A stretch of DNA of 54,012 bases from Betaproteobacteria bacterium. GTDB taxonomy: Bacteria > Pseudomonadota > Gammaproteobacteria > Burkholderiales > JAHFQX01. Position numbers and translations under genes: made by a program. Shown one piece after another: positions 49,232-54,012 of the stretch (positions are counted from its first letter, which is position 1; each line of letters begins with the position of its first letter). The stretch covers positions 1 through 54,012 of the forward strand of contig JAHFQX010000002.1 of the NCBI GenBank assembly GCA_023259135.1. Direction: 5' to 3'. The notes beneath the pieces were generated by a model, which searched no databases, was not told where the DNA came from, and saw nothing but the letters and a program-made list of their open reading frames with translations.

Positions 49232-49753
49232 TCAGCCGGAACGGGACGGGTTGCCGCTCTTGTCTGCCCGGACCTTGAGGACCGCTTCCCGGGGAGGCAG
49301 TTCCACCAATTCCACCAGCGCCCCATCCGGGTCTTCCACCATCAGGCTCTTGATGGGGCCGTAGCCCGGCAGATCCAAATCCACCGGGTCGCAGAAGAAC
49401 GGCACGTCGCGGGCCTTGAGGCGTTGCGCCACGGCTTGCAGCGACTCCTGCCGCACCTCGAAGGACAGCATGAGCAGTCCCGGATCGCCGGGCCGCTTGG
49501 GGCCGGAGGGTTTTTTCAGTCCTGGGCCCTGGAACACCAGCAGTTCCAGTTCCCCCACCTGGCTCTTGCCCTGCTGCAGGATCACCGAGCGGGCGGAGCT
49601 TCCCGGTTGCAGCCGGAACAGTTTTTCGAAGGACGCGCCGGACAATTGCATGTCCAGGGTTTTCCGGAACCCCAGCAGTTCGCAGTAAAAAGCCAGGGAC
49701 CGATCCATGTCGCTCACCGTCAGGGCGACGTGATGCACTTCGCTGAAAGCCAT
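49232..49753 (-). CDS. VOC-superfamily (glyoxalase/dioxygenase-fold) protein
   Basis: The 173-residue protein has a vicinal-oxygen-chelate fold. HHVALTVSDMDRSLAFYCELLGF is the first beta-alpha-beta module with a metal-type His, and MLSFEVRQESLQAVAQRL begins the second. VEDPDGALVELVEL near the C-terminus supplies the Glu ligand. Such proteins include methylmalonyl-CoA epimerases, glyoxalase I and ring-cleaving dioxygenases; sequence alone does not choose. It sits 51 bp after the CitE-type lyase, and its context suggests a role in C4/C5-CoA epimerisation or detoxification (inference). Confidence 0.85.
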   Translation of the reverse strand: MAFSEVHHVALTVSDMDRSLAFYCELLGFRKTLDMQLSGASFEKLFRLQPGSSARSVILQQGKSQVGELELLVFQGPGLKKPSGPKRPGDPGLLMLSFEVRQESLQAVAQRLKARDVPFFCDPVDLDLPGYGPIKSLMVEDPDGALVELVELPPREAVLKVRADKSGNPSRSG

Positions 49754-49804
49754 GAAACTCTCCGTAGAAGATTTAGGGATGCGGGCGGCTGTTCCGCCGG
49801 TTTT

Positions 49805-50716
49805 TCATAAGCCGAGAATCTCCGCCCGCTTCAGGATATTACCCATGATGCGCACCGAGGCGGCGTCCACCAGCATGCCGTCCATGCTGACCGCGCCCAG
49901 CCCCTGGACTTCGGCCTGGGCGTAGGCTTGAGCCAGCTTGCGGGCCTTGTCCACGTCTTCCGGGGAAGGCGTGAAGCATTCGACGGCGATATCGATCTGG
50001 GAAGGATGGATGGCCCACTTGCCGACGCAGCCCAGAATGTTGGCCCGCTCGCACTCGACGCGGAACGCTTCGGGGTTCTTGAAGTTGCCGAAGGGGCCAT
50101 CCACCGCGTCGATGCCGGCGGCGCGGGCGGCGATGATCATCTTGTAGCGGCAGTAGTGCCACAGGTCGCCGGGATAGGGGGATTCGCCGCCGATGGATTT
50201 GACGTCGATGCCCTGGGAGGCCGAGTAGTCGCCCATGCCGAAAATGATGGCTTCCAGCCGGTCGCTGGAACGGGCGATCTGCTCCACGTTGATCATGGCT
50301 TCCACTTCCTCGATGAGGGCTTCGAGGCCGATGCGCTTGGGCAGCTTGAGCTTTTTCTCGATCTGGGTGAGCAGGGTATCGACGAAATAGATATCCTTGC
50401 CGGACATGACCTTGGGAATGATGATGACATCCAGGTGTGCATGGGCTTGCTCCACCACATGGATAATGTCTTCGTAGGCATAAGGGGTGGTGAGATCGTT
50501 GATGCGCACCGCCCGGGTTTTCTCGCCCCAGTTAAGCGTGGTGAGGGCGGTGACGATCTTGTCCCGGGCTGCCACCTTGGCGTTGGGGGCGACGGCGTCC
50601 TCCAGATCCAGGAACACCAGGTCGGCGCGGCTTTCCGCCGCCTTGGCCATCATTTTCTCGCTGCTGCCGGGCACCGCCAGCTCCACCCGGCGGGGGCGTT
50701 TGATGCGTGGGTTCAT
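49805..50716 (-). CDS. CitE-family acyl-CoA lyase (malyl/beta-methylmalyl/citramalyl-CoA type)
   Basis: This is a 303-residue HpcH/HpaI-CitE-type TIM barrel. LVFLDLEDAVAP near 33-44 carries the metal-binding acidic residues. TRAVRINDL holds the CoA/substrate Arg, and EALIEEVEAMINVEQIA the second Glu. DAVDGPFGNFKN and GCVGKWAIHPSQI are shared with L-malyl-CoA/beta-methylmalyl-CoA lyases (Mcl1 type). The reaction is reversible cleavage to acetyl- or propionyl-CoA plus glyoxylate, or to acetyl-CoA plus pyruvate for citramalyl-CoA. A GGAG site lies 7 bp before the ATG. Cluster context with a CoA-transferase and MaoC hydratase supports C5-dicarboxyl-CoA chemistry. Confidence 0.88.
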   Translation of the reverse strand: MNPRIKRPRRVELAVPGSSEKMMAKAAESRADLVFLDLEDAVAPNAKVAARDKIVTALTTLNWGEKTRAVRINDLTTPYAYEDIIHVVEQAHAHLDVIIIPKVMSGKDIYFVDTLLTQIEKKLKLPKRIGLEALIEEVEAMINVEQIARSSDRLEAIIFGMGDYSASQGIDVKSIGGESPYPGDLWHYCRYKMIIAARAAGIDAVDGPFGNFKNPEAFRVECERANILGCVGKWAIHPSQIDIAVECFTPSPEDVDKARKLAQAYAQAEVQGLGAVSMDGMLVDAASVRIMGNILKRAEILGL

Positions 50717-50738
50717 ACGGTTCTCCGAAAGAAAAAAA

Positions 50739-51056
50739 TCAGGGCTTGCCGGCCCGCACTCGGCCGAAATGCCAAGCCAGGCCGATGGCGGCCAGCAGGG
50801 CTCCCAGGGCCACGGCCGCCATGGCGGCGGTATCGGAGAAGGAAAAGGCCCCGACTCCGCGCAGCAGGCCGTAGCCGATGACGAAATTGATCGTTCCCCA
50901 GATCACGTTGACGATCGGGGGGGACTCCCCCACGCCGGGCGGTTGGGCGAAAGGGCTCTGAAAGGGGCGGCCGGAGATGCCGTTGACAAAGTGGGGAACG
51001 CCGTTGGCCCCAAAAACCCCGGCGAAGAAATAAGCCAGTTCCGCTATCCAGTCCAT
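50739..51056 (-). CDS. Small conserved membrane protein
   Basis: The 105-residue protein has about three hydrophobic segments (about 5-20, 47-65, 75-95). A conserved-looking N-terminal block, FGANGVPHFVNGISGRPFQSPF, is rich in Gly, Pro and aromatic residues. No catalytic residues are evident, and I do not recognise a named family. It lies within the CoA-ester cluster, 22 bp before the lyase gene. It could be transport- or membrane-associated, but that is a guess. Confidence 0.7.
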   Translation of the reverse strand: MDWIAELAYFFAGVFGANGVPHFVNGISGRPFQSPFAQPPGVGESPPIVNVIWGTINFVIGYGLLRGVGAFSFSDTAAMAAVALGALLAAIGLAWHFGRVRAGKP

Positions 51057-51071
51057 GCTTCCTCCTTAATA

Positions 51072-51137
51072 GTTCCGGGTTCCGAGTTAAAACCAGATGA
51101 GCCGCGCGTGAGTTCGATGTTAACCCGAACCCGAAAC
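51072..51137. repeat. Hairpin repeat between CoA-transferase and membrane-protein genes
   Basis: GTTCCGGGTTCCGAGTTAA (51072-51090) is partly complementary to TTAACCCGAACCCGAAAC (51120-51137). The left arm differs from 46481-46497 at one base of 17. It separates the coupled acd-maoC-CoA-transferase block from the downstream genes and could reduce read-through. Confidence 0.65.
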
Positions 51138-51150
51138 CCTACACTAGAGA

Positions 51151-52374
51151 CTAAAGCACCAGCCCGGCAGCCCGCCAGCTCCGGATTTCCTCGAGGCCGC
51201 AGCCGGCTTCGGCCAGCACCGCATCGGTATCTTCCCCCAAGAGCGGCGCCCGGCGGGCGACGCGGCCCGGCGTTTCGGTGAGCCGCACCGGAATGCCGGC
51301 GATCAGCACCGGGGTGGCGCTGCCCGGCTGCTCCACCTCCACGATCATGCCGCGGCGGCGGAAATGCTCGTCCTCGATGATGTCCCGGACGTCATACACC
51401 GGACCGAAGGGAATCTTGCCGCCCAACAGGCCCATCAACTCCTTCTTGGTGTAGCGCAGGGTAAAGCCGGTGACGGCCTTATCCACGATAGCCTGGTTCT
51501 TGATTCGCCCGTCATTGCCGGAGAAAGCCGGGTCGCCGCCCAGTTCCGGGCGGCCGATGATCTGGCACAACTGCTTCCAGAATTCGTCCGCCGGGCAGGC
51601 GATGGTGATCCAGCCGTCCTTGCACGGGAACATGCCGAAGGGGCACAGCAGCGGATGGCGGTTGCCTTCCGGGTGGGGCACCTTGCCCTGGTAGGAATAC
51701 TGGTAGACGATGCGCTCGCACAAGGACAAGACACCGTCCACCATGGGGGCATCGACGAATTGCCCCCGACCGGTGCGCTGGGCGTGGTACACCGCGGCCA
51801 TGATGCCGAAAGCCATCATCATGGCCGGCACCAGGTCGCCGACGCCGGGGCCGACTTTCAAGGGGGTGGTGGGGTCCGGGCCGGTAATCCCCATGATGCC
51901 GCCCATGGCCTGGGACACCACGTCGAAGGCCGGCCAGTCGACATAGGGGCTCTCTCCGCCGCGCGGGTCGCCGAAGCCCCGCAGCGCGGCGTAGACCAGC
52001 CGGGGATTGCGCTCCCGCAGGGTCTCGAAGGACAGCCCCAGGCGGTCCATCACCCCGGATCGGAAATTCTCCGCCACCACGTCGGCGCCTTCCGCCAGGC
52101 GCAGGAAAATTTCCTTGCCGGCGGGCTGCTTGAGATCGAGCGCCAGGCTTTTCTTGTTGCGGTTGATGCTCTGGAAATAGCCGCCGAACAGTTTTTGCGG
52201 GTCATCGGGACGGTAGGGCCCCATGCGGCGGGTCATCTCCCCCTCGGGGGGCTCGATCTTGATGACCTCGGCCCCTTGGTCCGCCAGCATCTGGGTGCAG
52301 AAAGGCCCCGCCAGCATCTGGGTGAGATCCAGCACTTTCAGGCCCTCCAGGGCGCCGGGGGAGATGCCGCTCAT
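51151..52374 (-). CDS. Family III (CaiB/BaiF) CoA-transferase
   Basis: Family III transferases move CoA between acyl groups through an aspartyl-CoA intermediate. The 407-residue product has the N-terminal LKVLDLTQMLAGPFCTQMLADQGAEVIKIE, the mid-block NKKSLALDLKQPAGKEIFLRL and VAENFRSGVMDRLGL. The likely catalytic Asp151 is in FDVVSQAMGG. Full length for the family. Together with the CitE lyase and MaoC protein it resembles mesaconyl-CoA C1-C4 transferase or itaconate/succinyl-CoA transferase sets. ATG 52374 overlaps the maoC stop (ATGA). Confidence 0.92.
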   Translation of the reverse strand: MSGISPGALEGLKVLDLTQMLAGPFCTQMLADQGAEVIKIEPPEGEMTRRMGPYRPDDPQKLFGGYFQSINRNKKSLALDLKQPAGKEIFLRLAEGADVVAENFRSGVMDRLGLSFETLRERNPRLVYAALRGFGDPRGGESPYVDWPAFDVVSQAMGGIMGITGPDPTTPLKVGPGVGDLVPAMMMAFGIMAAVYHAQRTGRGQFVDAPMVDGVLSLCERIVYQYSYQGKVPHPEGNRHPLLCPFGMFPCKDGWITIACPADEFWKQLCQIIGRPELGGDPAFSGNDGRIKNQAIVDKAVTGFTLRYTKKELMGLLGGKIPFGPVYDVRDIIEDEHFRRRGMIVEVEQPGSATPVLIAGIPVRLTETPGRVARRAPLLGEDTDAVLAEAGCGLEEIRSWRAAGLVL

Positions 52375-52850
52375 TTGTCTCCCCAATGGCTGCGGCGCTT
52401 CACCAGCACCCGGCGCTCGCCCTCGAACACCACTTTGTCATTCTGGTTCACCCCCCAGTGACGGAAACGGACGACGCCGGCATCGGGCCGGTCGGCGTTC
52501 TGGATTTCCAGCACCTCGCTGTAGGCATAGAGCGTGTCGCCGTGGAACACCGGGGATTTGAAGCGAATCTTGTCCAGCCCCAGTTCCGCCAGGGCGTTCT
52601 CCGCGGTATCCTGGCTGGCCAGGCCGATCACCAGGGAGGCGGTGACGCCGCCGAAGGTGATGCGGTGGCCGAAGGGCGTGCCCAGCATGGCATGCTCGTT
52701 GAAATGCCCTTGGGCGGTGTTCATCACTAGGTTGGTGATGAGCACGTTCTCCAAGGCTTCCACGGTCTTGCCCCGGGCGTGGCGCATCACGGTCCCGACG
52801 ACGAAATCCTCGAAATAATTGTCCTGGCCGGTCAGTTCCGAGACTTTCAT
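52371..52850 (-). CDS. MaoC-like enoyl-CoA hydratase/dehydratase
   Basis: The 159-residue single hot-dog protein has the MaoC opening QDNYFEDFVVGTVMRHARGKTV and the segment NTAQGHFNEHAMLGTPFG. FKSPVFHGDTLYAYSEVLE is typical of hydratases acting on branched dicarboxyl-CoA esters. In mesaconyl-CoA and itaconyl-CoA hydratases the same fold is used; the exact substrate is open. It is coupled by 4-bp overlaps to the acyl-CoA dehydrogenase before it and the CoA-transferase after it. Confidence 0.9.
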   Translation of the reverse strand: MKVSELTGQDNYFEDFVVGTVMRHARGKTVEALENVLITNLVMNTAQGHFNEHAMLGTPFGHRITFGGVTASLVIGLASQDTAENALAELGLDKIRFKSPVFHGDTLYAYSEVLEIQNADRPDAGVVRFRHWGVNQNDKVVFEGERRVLVKRRSHWGDK

Positions 52851-54010
52851 GCGCCCCTCCCCAGCAGGTGATCGGAGATGATCCGCAACTGAATTTCCGA
52901 AGTGCCTTCGAAGATTTTGGTGAGCCGGGCATCGCGCCAATGGCGCTCCACCGCATAGAGCTTGGTGTAGCCGGCGCCGCCGTGGATTTGCAGCGCCTCG
53001 CTGGTGACGCGCTCCGACATCTCGCTGGCGAACAGCTTCACCATGGCGGCTTCCTTGTCGCAGCGGCGGCCGGTGTCGATGGCGTCGCAGACGGAATACA
53101 TGAATTGCCGGGCGGCCTCGATCTCGGTGGCCATCTGGCCGATCTTGAAGCGGATGGCCTGGAACTCGGCGATGGGCTGGTTGAATTGAACCCGCTGCTT
53201 GGCGTAGGCGATGGCGTCTTCCAGTCCCCCCCGGGCCAGCCCGATGGAGCGGGCGGCGGTATGGGCGCGGGCCTTCTCCAGGCCGCTGGTGACCATGTAG
53301 AAGGCCTTGCCTGCTTCCCCCACCAGGCAGGAAGCGGGGATGCGGCAGTTGTCGAAAGCCAGTTCGAAGGTCTTCCAGCCGAAGTAGCCGATTTTCGGGA
53401 TGGGGTTGCCTTTGACCCCCGGCGGAAATTCCCCCCGCGGTTTTTCGATGAGGAAGGCGCTGATGCCCACGTGCCGCCGCTTGGGATCCGGGTCCTCGCC
53501 GGTGCGGGCCAGCACCATGATGAAGTCGGCCTGGTCGGCGAAGGTGCACCAGTACTTGTTGCCGTTCAGCACCCAATGGTCGCCGTCGCGGCGGGCGCGA
53601 CAGGTGATGTTGGCCACGTCGGAGCCGGCGTTGGGCTCGGACAGCGAGAACGCGCCCAGAAACTCTCCCTTGGCCATGCGGGAAAGGTATTGCTGGCGCT
53701 GCTCCTCGGTCATCACCGTGGCGGAGCCGATGAGCCCATTGCCCCGGGCAATGAGGCTGGCCACGCTCATCCAGGCGCGGGCCAGCTCTTCGGCGATGAG
53801 ACAGTATTCGAAGCAGCCCAGGCCCATGCCACCGTATGCCTCGGGGATCATGATGCCGAAATAGCCCATGTCGGCGAGTTTCTTTCTGAGCTCCATGGGG
53901 ATGTCGCCTTGCACCGGGTCCAGTTCGTTGGCCACCGGCAGCACCTCCTTCATGGCGAATTCCCGGGCCGCCTCCTGAATCATGCGGCGTTCTTCGGTGA
54001 GATGGGTCAT
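52847..54010 (-). CDS. Acyl-CoA dehydrogenase of the C5-CoA cluster
   Basis: This is a 387-residue FAD acyl-CoA dehydrogenase, probably complete, with ATG at 54010 only two bases from the window edge. Signatures are GAFSLSEPNAGSDVANI near 118, FDNCRIPASCLVGE near 220 and LQIHGGAGYTKLYAVERHWRDARL. The canonical catalytic Glu is in IFEGTSEIQ, about 20 residues from the end. It begins a translationally coupled trio with the MaoC protein and CoA-transferase. Substrate could be a methylsuccinyl- or short branched acyl-CoA by context (inference). Electrons would pass through ETF to ETF-QO at 11267-12928. Confidence 0.92.
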   Translation of the reverse strand: MTHLTEERRMIQEAAREFAMKEVLPVANELDPVQGDIPMELRKKLADMGYFGIMIPEAYGGMGLGCFEYCLIAEELARAWMSVASLIARGNGLIGSATVMTEEQRQQYLSRMAKGEFLGAFSLSEPNAGSDVANITCRARRDGDHWVLNGNKYWCTFADQADFIMVLARTGEDPDPKRRHVGISAFLIEKPRGEFPPGVKGNPIPKIGYFGWKTFELAFDNCRIPASCLVGEAGKAFYMVTSGLEKARAHTAARSIGLARGGLEDAIAYAKQRVQFNQPIAEFQAIRFKIGQMATEIEAARQFMYSVCDAIDTGRRCDKEAAMVKLFASEMSERVTSEALQIHGGAGYTKLYAVERHWRDARLTKIFEGTSEIQLRIISDHLLGRGA

Positions 54011-54012
54011 GT

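Follow-up and report, generated by a model that had tools for sequence, protein, structure and literature searches.

The window analyzed here is a stretch of 54,012 nucleotides from a Betaproteobacteria genome (C13:1-54012; the assembly has 2.58 Mb in 86 contigs and is 98.99% complete), and at its end lies a minus-strand gene cluster that we examined as a candidate operon for the breakdown of methylsuccinate, a branched acid with five carbons, and of mesaconate through coenzyme A (CoA) esters. A sequence-only reading of the window had described six frames there as one compact cluster. This observation was borne out: the six frames are present on the minus strand where that reading had placed them, and the Pfam families agree for five of the six. 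Its advice to inspect the sequence beyond position 54012 led to two further genes on the same strand, a second MaoC gene (MaoC1, about C13:54007-54504) and an MmgE/PrpD gene (C13:54572-55957). The order is PrpD, MaoC1, acyl-CoA dehydrogenase, MaoC2, CoA-transferase, small membrane protein, lyase and VOC protein. The window end truncates the operon, with most of MaoC1 and all of PrpD lying outside.

ATGA four-base overlaps were found at two junctions, on both sides of MaoC2, and the remaining gaps measure 22-94 bases; this spacing suggests that the eight genes form one operon. A 13-base run of N at C13:54013-54025, just beyond the window end, masks the 3′ end of MaoC1. For the CoA-transferase, the ATG at 52374 is the favored start. 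The TTG at 52386, which would lengthen the frame, is the less probable start because, in two of the related loci described below, the corresponding frame begins MSAMSPG (L040) or contains MSGISPG at this place (L042).

A scan of named genomes seeded with the lyase gave 58 loci (L040-L097), to which ten proteins of the window region were compared by tblastn; counts in this set are lowered by contig ends and inflated by near-identical genomes, such as L041/L042 and L075/L081. A lyase at least 50% identical was found in 52 of the 58 loci, and within the retrieved stretches its same-strand partners were the dehydrogenase (43 loci), MaoC2 (42), MaoC1 (39), the CoA-transferase (32) and PrpD (24). 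All six enzymes occur together in 19 of the 58 loci, 16 of them in the order of the window and three rearranged, including a Streptomyces. The 16 same-order loci comprise 15 from Pseudomonadota and one Chloroflexota metagenome-assembled genome (MAG; L074), and the rearranged versions are in Actinomycetota. Among the 33 loci whose retrieved stretch extends 5.5 kb or more before the lyase and 3 kb or more after it, 11 had the enzyme order of the window, two of these 11 with the membrane protein. The co-occurrence of the cluster genes exceeds chance and, judging from this linkage, the operon is real and widespread. Among named genomes, a Rhodocyclaceae MAG has the lyase most similar to that of the window (83%). 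The operon is rare in a sample of 250 genomes from the same taxonomic order, since among the 38 lyase matches there only that of the own genome exceeds 51% identity; a search at the level of the family covered the own genome only.

All six genes are in order on plasmids of Variovorax boronicumulans, Pseudosulfitobacter pseudonitzschiae and Tistrella mobilis, where they are annotated only by family names such as "CoA ester lyase" and "MaoC family dehydratase". A TRAP dicarboxylate transporter lies directly upstream on the Pseudosulfitobacter and Tistrella plasmids, and an IclR regulator lies downstream in Tistrella. By Pfam, TRAP genes are also directly downstream in L042, and their relatives occupy the same place in L040 and L041. 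A single run of genes in a Geodermatophilus locus (L096:415-8943) includes two PrpD, two dehydrogenase and two CoA-transferase genes. One set is similar to that of the window and the other more distant, and these perhaps represent two related, adjacent dicarboxylate pathways. In other Actinomycetota, a reversed PrpD gene and a further malyl-CoA-lyase-like gene (40-42%) adjoin the operon (L075:11270-13632, L081:11453-13824, L084:5330-7596).

The CitE-superfamily lyase (49805-50716, minus strand) has 5UGR, a malyl-CoA/beta-methylmalyl-CoA lyase, as its best solved relative (275 bits), followed by 4L9Y (239), 4L7Z (161), CLYBL (112) and RipC (97). We take 5UGR to be from M. extorquens, 4L7Z to be from C. 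aurantiacus and 5VXC to be human CLYBL. In a tree covering 70 of 135 rows, 29 cluster lyases form one clade (support 99) within the malyl-CoA lyase (MCL) superclade (99), beside Mcl1/MCLR. Five itaconate-type cluster lyases stand apart (98), one of them from a locus whose retrieved stretch shows no PrpD (L137), and the Chloroflexus lyase does not group with the window lyase. This tree and those of the CoA-transferase and the dehydrogenase are quick trees with long branches, and their support values are from the SH-like approximate likelihood ratio test (SH-aLRT) only.

The catalytic and metal-binding residues of MCLR (E44, D45, R76, E141, D168 and D299) are all kept in the window lyase and in 48 of 48 cluster lyases, counted over loci L040-L097 with all columns filled (the columns were incomplete in two of 50). 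The window lyase also has the pocket Trp and Pro; in the same set the Trp is kept in 48 of 48 and the Pro in 47 of 48, and Leu and Val occupy these places in the five itaconate-type lyases. The Pro and Trp of the MCL pocket are reported to crowd the methyl group of pyruvate (PMC3832036). The evidence leans clearly toward grouping the window lyase with the malyl-/beta-methylmalyl-CoA lyases, and cleavage of beta-methylmalyl-CoA is predicted.

A second CitE-like gene, with Glu replacing Asp299, lies near the lyase in several loci (L044:7541-8323, L048:12055-12867, L055:3017-3835, L058:2978-3817, L070:2984-3817, L087:4616-5404, L088:9937-10716 and L124:13385-14224). The Asp299-to-Glu exchange has been reported in enzymes that cluster with malyl-CoA thioesterase (PMC3832036), and these genes give a weak hint that glyoxylate might be condensed to malyl-CoA, which would then be hydrolyzed to malate. 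The hint is weakened by the same Glu in some unrelated loci (L126, L127) and by an extra copy with Asp in L087. In an NCBIfam search of three of these genes, no malyl-CoA thioesterase name was returned.

The family III CoA-transferase (51151-52374, minus strand), predicted to be a succinyl-CoA:methylsuccinate/mesaconate CoA-transferase, scored 456 bits against NF041294, the model of succinyl-CoA:mesaconate CoA-transferase (Mct). The next model reached 280 bits. Because 456 bits is under the cut-off of 700, we call the protein Mct-like and not a member of Mct. It is not an intramolecular Mct, the mesaconyl-CoA C1-C4 transferase (TIGR04253, 76 bits against a cut-off of 725). In the tree, which covers 66 of 71 rows, the haloarchaeal Mct of Halegenticoccus is sister to all 33 cluster rows (100), and the itaconate-type and Ict proteins are elsewhere. 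The Halegenticoccus protein itself is over the Mct cut-off (734 bits) and is 48% identical to the window protein, in which the GNxH loop is present. The Mct of Haloarcula hispanica is reported to form only mesaconyl-C1-CoA and to be catalytically more efficient on methylsuccinate than on mesaconate (PMC5592240). The own genome is rich in CoA-transferase paralogues for 2.6 Mb: 36 matches to NF041294, some of them partial, were found, six at 70-85 kb of contig C13 (e.g., C13:70297-84477).

The acyl-CoA dehydrogenase (52847-54010, minus strand; family by Pfam) is a predicted methylsuccinyl-C1-CoA dehydrogenase. With a profile of ten cluster members, the top solved match was 6ES9 (353 bits). We take 6ES9 to be PdMCD, in agreement with nine checked positions that carry the letters named in PMC5798300. 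PdMCD joins the cluster members (98) in a tree that covers 53 of 71 rows. The window protein retains five residues of PdMCD (Ser248, Arg252, Thr418, Arg421 and Glu535), and all five occur together in 34 of the 35 cluster members from loci L040-L097; residue roles follow the description of methylsuccinyl-CoA dehydrogenase (MCD) in PMC5798300. The window protein has 387 residues and is without the N-terminal extension of about 170 residues seen in MCD of the ethylmalonyl-CoA type. The itaconate-type dehydrogenases (L123:11584-12783, L130, L138 and L136:4515-5681) have neither Arg, with Glu at 421 and Pro at 535. In isovaleryl-CoA dehydrogenase, the catalytic Glu is on helix G and accommodates a beta-branched substrate (PMC5798300). 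Methylsuccinyl-C4-CoA is beta-branched and methylsuccinyl-C1-CoA is alpha-branched, and the helix-G Glu of the itaconate-type enzymes may explain their C4-CoA specificity. Since the Glu is at the canonical place in the window protein and at the helix-G place in the itaconate-type enzymes, the catalytic geometry of the dehydrogenase seems to separate the C1 and C4 routes.

The two MaoC proteins correspond to two halves of one hydratase. MaoC1 (minus strand, TTG start, with positions 54007-54012 in the window) matches PF19315 at positions 12-168 of 353 (113.1 bits) and NF041625 at positions 14-171 of 358 (117.3 bits), and MaoC2 (52371-52850, minus strand) matches PF19315 at positions 223-352 (84.9 bits). 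The N-half and C-half of mesaconyl-CoA hydratase (Mch), both over the Pfam cut-off, are thus carried on two genes and not on one fused chain, and the dehydrogenase gene sits between them. We built a careful tree from 45 rows hand-picked from 49 MaoC1 and 48 MaoC2 rows plus references, in which the N-half of the haloarchaeal Mch groups with MaoC1 (99/98) and its C-half with MaoC2 (100/99). The entry 8HGN is presumably from M. extorquens. An NTAxxH motif with an Asn/His pair is present in the window MaoC2 and in 42 of 44 MaoC2 rows (at least 50% identity, re-fetched copies included). At the His place, MaoC1 has Tyr in 31, Cys in two and His in one of 40 rows, and the pattern was unmatched in six. 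Such a catalytic Asn/His pair has been described for the mesaconyl-CoA hydratase of M. extorquens (PMC10164722). Because MaoC2 keeps the pair and MaoC1 mostly has Tyr at the His place, we infer that the two proteins form a heteromer with one active site, MaoC2 being the predicted catalytic subunit of the mesaconyl-C1-CoA hydratase and MaoC1 its predicted non-catalytic partner.

The MmgE/PrpD protein, encoded by the first gene of the operon (minus strand; PF03972, 237.5 bits; PF19305, 89.9 bits), is a predicted methylsuccinate isomerase. It shares with iminodisuccinate epimerase and methylsuccinate isomerase all seven active-site positions (His85, Asp88, His99, Tyr145, His150, Lys198 and Lys266 of the epimerase; HDHYHKK), as do 24 of 25 cluster members. 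This set has been tied to methylsuccinate isomerization, including the extra Tyr that a one-base decarboxylase mechanism does not need (PMC12290011). The window PrpD has Asp88 as in the epimerase, whereas the itaconate-cluster isomerases, to which it is 34-38% identical, have Glu. We also considered that PrpD acts as a citramalate dehydratase, as in the citramalate cycle (PMC8307300). This candidate was set aside because the PrpD of the itaconate cluster is an isomerase for which no activity on mesaconate was found (PMC12290011), and because the two-base residues are kept here.

The family, placement, catalytic residues and conserved linkage of these enzymes, as read from the sequence, point to a catabolic route in which methylsuccinate, and mesaconate one step later, are probably converted through C1-CoA esters to propionyl-CoA and glyoxylate. 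The predicted regiochemistry is activation at the carboxyl group next to the methyl-bearing carbon, and the substrates, products and direction of flux would be as follows. PrpD would interconvert (S)- and (R)-methylsuccinate, and the CoA-transferase would pass CoA from succinyl-CoA to C1 of methylsuccinate or mesaconate. The dehydrogenase would convert methylsuccinyl-C1-CoA to mesaconyl-C1-CoA. MaoC1 and MaoC2 jointly would hydrate the latter to beta-methylmalyl-CoA, with the Asn/His pair on MaoC2, and the lyase would cleave beta-methylmalyl-CoA to propionyl-CoA and glyoxylate. The sequence-only reading had proposed CoA-ester metabolism of either the mesaconyl/methylmalyl or the itaconyl/citramalyl kind and had held the choice to be undecided by sequence. 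The placement of the lyase, CoA-transferase, dehydrogenase and hydratase supports the former alternative, and that caution appears too great: the tree and residues of the lyase, the tree of the CoA-transferase, the residues and tree of the dehydrogenase and the hydratase halves all lean toward mesaconyl-C1-CoA and beta-methylmalyl-CoA.

However, a number of observations weigh against this interpretation. Its weakest point is the exact substrate. The main doubts are that the window dehydrogenase has no methyl-pocket alanine and that the enzyme families are promiscuous. None of the eight proteins scores over an NCBIfam cut-off, and PrpD and the CoA-transferase are found in just 24 and 32 of the 52 lyase loci. 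For the lyase, the NCBIfam scores are 178 bits for citE (cut-off 443), 164 for RipC and 98 for haloarchaeal malyl-CoA lyase, all well under cut-off. The sequence-only reading had named citrate lyase and formyl-CoA transferase clades as placements that would speak against its proposal. The lyase falls in the MCL superclade and the CoA-transferase with the haloarchaeal Mct (456 bits against 276 for formyl-CoA transferase), but the top NCBIfam score of the lyase is citE, and the trees contained no true citrate-lyase beta subunits or formyl-CoA transferases. Ala167 of MCLR, which precedes the Mg-binding Asp and is invariant in both MCL groups, is replaced by Gly in the window and in 47 of 48 cluster lyases, and because of this we call the lyase MCL-like and not a member of MCL. 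The Chloroflexus lyase, which cleaves citramalyl-CoA (PMC3832036), also carries the Pro/Trp pocket, so the pocket does not rule out citramalyl-CoA as a substrate.

The other enzymes likewise contribute doubts. The GNxH loop is present in just 28 of 37 CoA-transferases at 50% identity or more, and the Haloarcula Mct has side activities with itaconate, acrylate and glutarate (PMC5592240). In a single-sequence search with the dehydrogenase, FadE3 came first and PdMCD sixth. The window has Phe285, Leu287 and Phe376 where PdMCD has Ala, Phe and Arg (the methyl pocket and Arg376); 14 of 35 cluster members share the Phe at position 285, and the A282F/F284L variant of the R. sphaeroides MCD was inactive (PMC5798300). 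For M. extorquens Mch, the C-half groups with MaoC2 but the N-half is not placed with MaoC1, and the haloarchaeal Mch prefers mesaconyl-C1-CoA over the C4 ester just 3.5-fold (PMC5592240). The seven-residue set of PrpD is necessary but not sufficient, since all seven residues also occur in a B. subtilis PrpD protein whose function is unknown; the HDHYHKK set is not exclusive, being present in 7BRA.

Four other explanations were weighed. The operon may use the same chemistry to break down other 2-substituted succinates, such as longer 2-alkylsuccinates, to glyoxylate and a longer acyl-CoA, with methylsuccinate at most a side substrate. The Gly at position 167 in 47 of 48 lyases gives more space beside the acyl tail, and the dehydrogenase has a methyl pocket unlike that of PdMCD. 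Larger substrates modified at C3 could, according to PMC12290011, fit into the isomerase pocket. The CoA-transferase, however, is sister to a family whose characterized member prefers mesaconate and methylsuccinate, and Phe285 in the window lineage narrows rather than widens the C2 pocket of the dehydrogenase; we consider this explanation unlikely. Equally doubtful is the broader form, in which the operon would serve the C1-CoA breakdown of 2-substituted succinates in general (R-succinate to glyoxylate and R-CH2-CO-CoA) and methylsuccinate would be the simplest case. If true, it would be a general alkylsuccinate route and a source of glyoxylate that needs no isocitrate lyase. A conversion of succinyl-CoA through fumaryl-CoA and malyl-CoA to acetyl-CoA and glyoxylate, an isocitrate-lyase-free route from succinate, would fit a dehydrogenase without the methyl-pocket alanine; fumaryl-CoA is hydrated by the haloarchaeal Mch, and PMC5592240 discusses a shortcut of this kind as a possibility. 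We regard it as highly improbable, as a PrpD isomerase is pointless for achiral succinate and yet is linked in 24 of 52 loci, dehydrogenase position 285 is non-aromatic in 20 of 35 cluster members, and an isocitrate lyase match is present in the own genome.

An itaconate/citramalate cluster as in pseudomonads, working through C4-CoA esters to acetyl-CoA and pyruvate, would use identical enzyme classes, including PrpD and the dehydrogenase (PMC12290011). The lyase residues taken alone are compatible with it, since the Chloroflexus lyase shows that an MCL-type enzyme can cleave citramalyl-CoA (PMC3832036), and the lyase scores 164 bits as RipC. This itaconate/methylsuccinate (C4) candidate was nevertheless set aside on three trees and the dehydrogenase residues: the lyase is not in the Ccl clade, the CoA-transferase is not in the Ict clade, the dehydrogenase is likewise in another clade, and its catalytic Glu is at the canonical and not the helix-G place. 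Furthermore, both kinds of cluster are present within one genome. Itaconate degradation is probably not the role of the operon, and this explanation as a whole appears very unlikely. The operon might also be left over from the ethylmalonyl-CoA pathway or the 3-hydroxypropionate bicycle and serve to assimilate acetate or glyoxylate; in favor of this, the best solved lyase relative is a malyl-CoA lyase of the ethylmalonyl-CoA-pathway type (275 bits). The ethylmalonyl-CoA pathway was rejected because no crotonyl-CoA carboxylase/reductase (Ccr) is over cut-off in the 98.99% complete own genome (best 104 bits against 378.55). The bicycle, which the sequence-only reading had offered as one source of this enzyme set, found no support and was rejected on the types of its enzymes, the CoA-transferase not being the intramolecular Mct and the lyase not grouping with the Chloroflexus enzyme; no search was aimed at its key enzymes. 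Isocitrate lyase and malate synthase matches are present and the dehydrogenase is without the N-terminal extension of MCD, and such a remnant is extremely improbable.

Two genes between and beside the enzymes are not conserved members of the cluster. The VOC/glyoxalase-family protein (49232-49753, minus strand; PF00903, 42.1 bits) is a downstream neighbor that the sequence-only reading had counted as a cluster member, but it was found in 0 of the 52 loci. We set aside a role as methylmalonyl-CoA epimerase, because it has no match to such a model at 1e-3 and no VOC protein is in the other loci. The same reading had included the small membrane protein (50739-51056, minus strand; 105 residues), which accompanies the cluster in only 3 of 52 loci and also occurs away from it; it appears to be a lineage-specific passenger. 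Among the 58 loci its homologues are in L040-L042 only (59-68% identity), and it has no Pfam match at 1e-3. AlphaFold predicts three helices, with a best predicted local distance difference test (pLDDT) score of 80.5, the other four models ranging from 45.8 to 76.1, from four sequences. Relatives without the operon were found at L166:4089-4418, which overlaps a gene resembling the major facilitator superfamily (MFS) by four bases, and at L167:4342-4671. The protein was set aside as a pathway part, as its relatives in G007 (beside an MFS-like gene) and G118 are in genomes with no lyase match. Further upstream of PrpD on the same strand are a GlcD-type flavin adenine dinucleotide (FAD) oxidase and a class I polyhydroxyalkanoate (PHA) synthase, neither with a match in loci L040-L097 (tblastn, 1e-8).

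Elsewhere in the own genome, adjoining isocitrate lyase and malate synthase matches are on contig C16, four methylmalonyl-CoA mutase homologues are present, and no other RipC/Ccl match exceeds 100 bits. The malate synthase and methylmalonyl-CoA mutase homologues could use the glyoxylate and propionyl-CoA predicted as products of the C1-CoA route. Degradation of methylsuccinate was resolved only in 2023-2025, within the itaconate cluster and via C4-CoA esters (PMC9875883, PMC12290011), and among the titles and abstract openings of the literature searched, with subscription papers mostly outside its scope, no description of a C1-CoA methylsuccinate route was found. If our interpretation is true, the operon would be a second, independent bacterial route for methylsuccinate, with activation on the methyl side, and both routes would be present in C. 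necator SHC 2-3. It would also give a function to the bacterial relatives of the haloarchaeal Mct and Mch, for which the excerpt of the 2017 paper (PMC5592240) gives none, present mesaconyl-CoA hydratase as a two-gene heteromer, and provide a name for a gene set annotated only by family on three plasmids.

A close counterpart with the same logic is the ich-mcd-mmgE-ict-ccl cluster of P. aeruginosa and C. necator, which has the same classes of enzymes: a PrpD isomerase, a succinyl-CoA-dependent family III CoA-transferase, a dehydrogenase, a hydratase and a CitE-superfamily lyase (PMC12290011, PMC9875883). Its methylsuccinate route proceeds through C4 esters (PMC12290011) to acetyl-CoA and pyruvate, whereas C1-CoA esters, propionyl-CoA and glyoxylate are predicted for the window operon, whose lyase, CoA-transferase and dehydrogenase are in other clades and whose hydratase is split into two MaoC genes. 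Four genomes carry a cluster of each kind: C. necator SHC 2-3 (G253), Cupriavidus G251 and G252, and Alloalcanivorax G256. The itaconate-type sets there are L123, L130, L138 and L136, equated with the published cluster by gene order and family and not by accession numbers, and the window-type sets are L124, L058, L070 and L135 (the same as L088). The window proteins are 28-38% identical to the former and 43-71% identical to the latter. The hydratase of L123, which has no NCBIfam match at 1e-10, we take to be such on the basis of its position and a motif.

The haloarchaeal methylaspartate cycle provides the relatives of the hydratase and the CoA-transferase: MaoC1 and MaoC2 match the N- and C-halves of Mch at 36% each, and the CoA-transferase is 48% identical to the Halegenticoccus Mct. 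There, however, Mch is a single fused chain and mesaconate derives from glutamate, and the excerpt of PMC5592240 shows no dehydrogenase or PrpD. Its description of bacterial Mch relatives, mostly an N-half alone with a few two-domain proteins in Actinobacteria, assigns them no function. The Mcd-Mch-Mcl1 module of the ethylmalonyl-CoA pathway carries out the same three reactions that are predicted here, from methylsuccinyl-C1-CoA to glyoxylate and propionyl-CoA, and includes the nearest solved lyase and dehydrogenase. Unlike that module, the window operon would begin from a free acid activated by a CoA-transferase, and it has a dehydrogenase without the extension of about 170 residues and a split hydratase, in a genome in which no Ccr was found.

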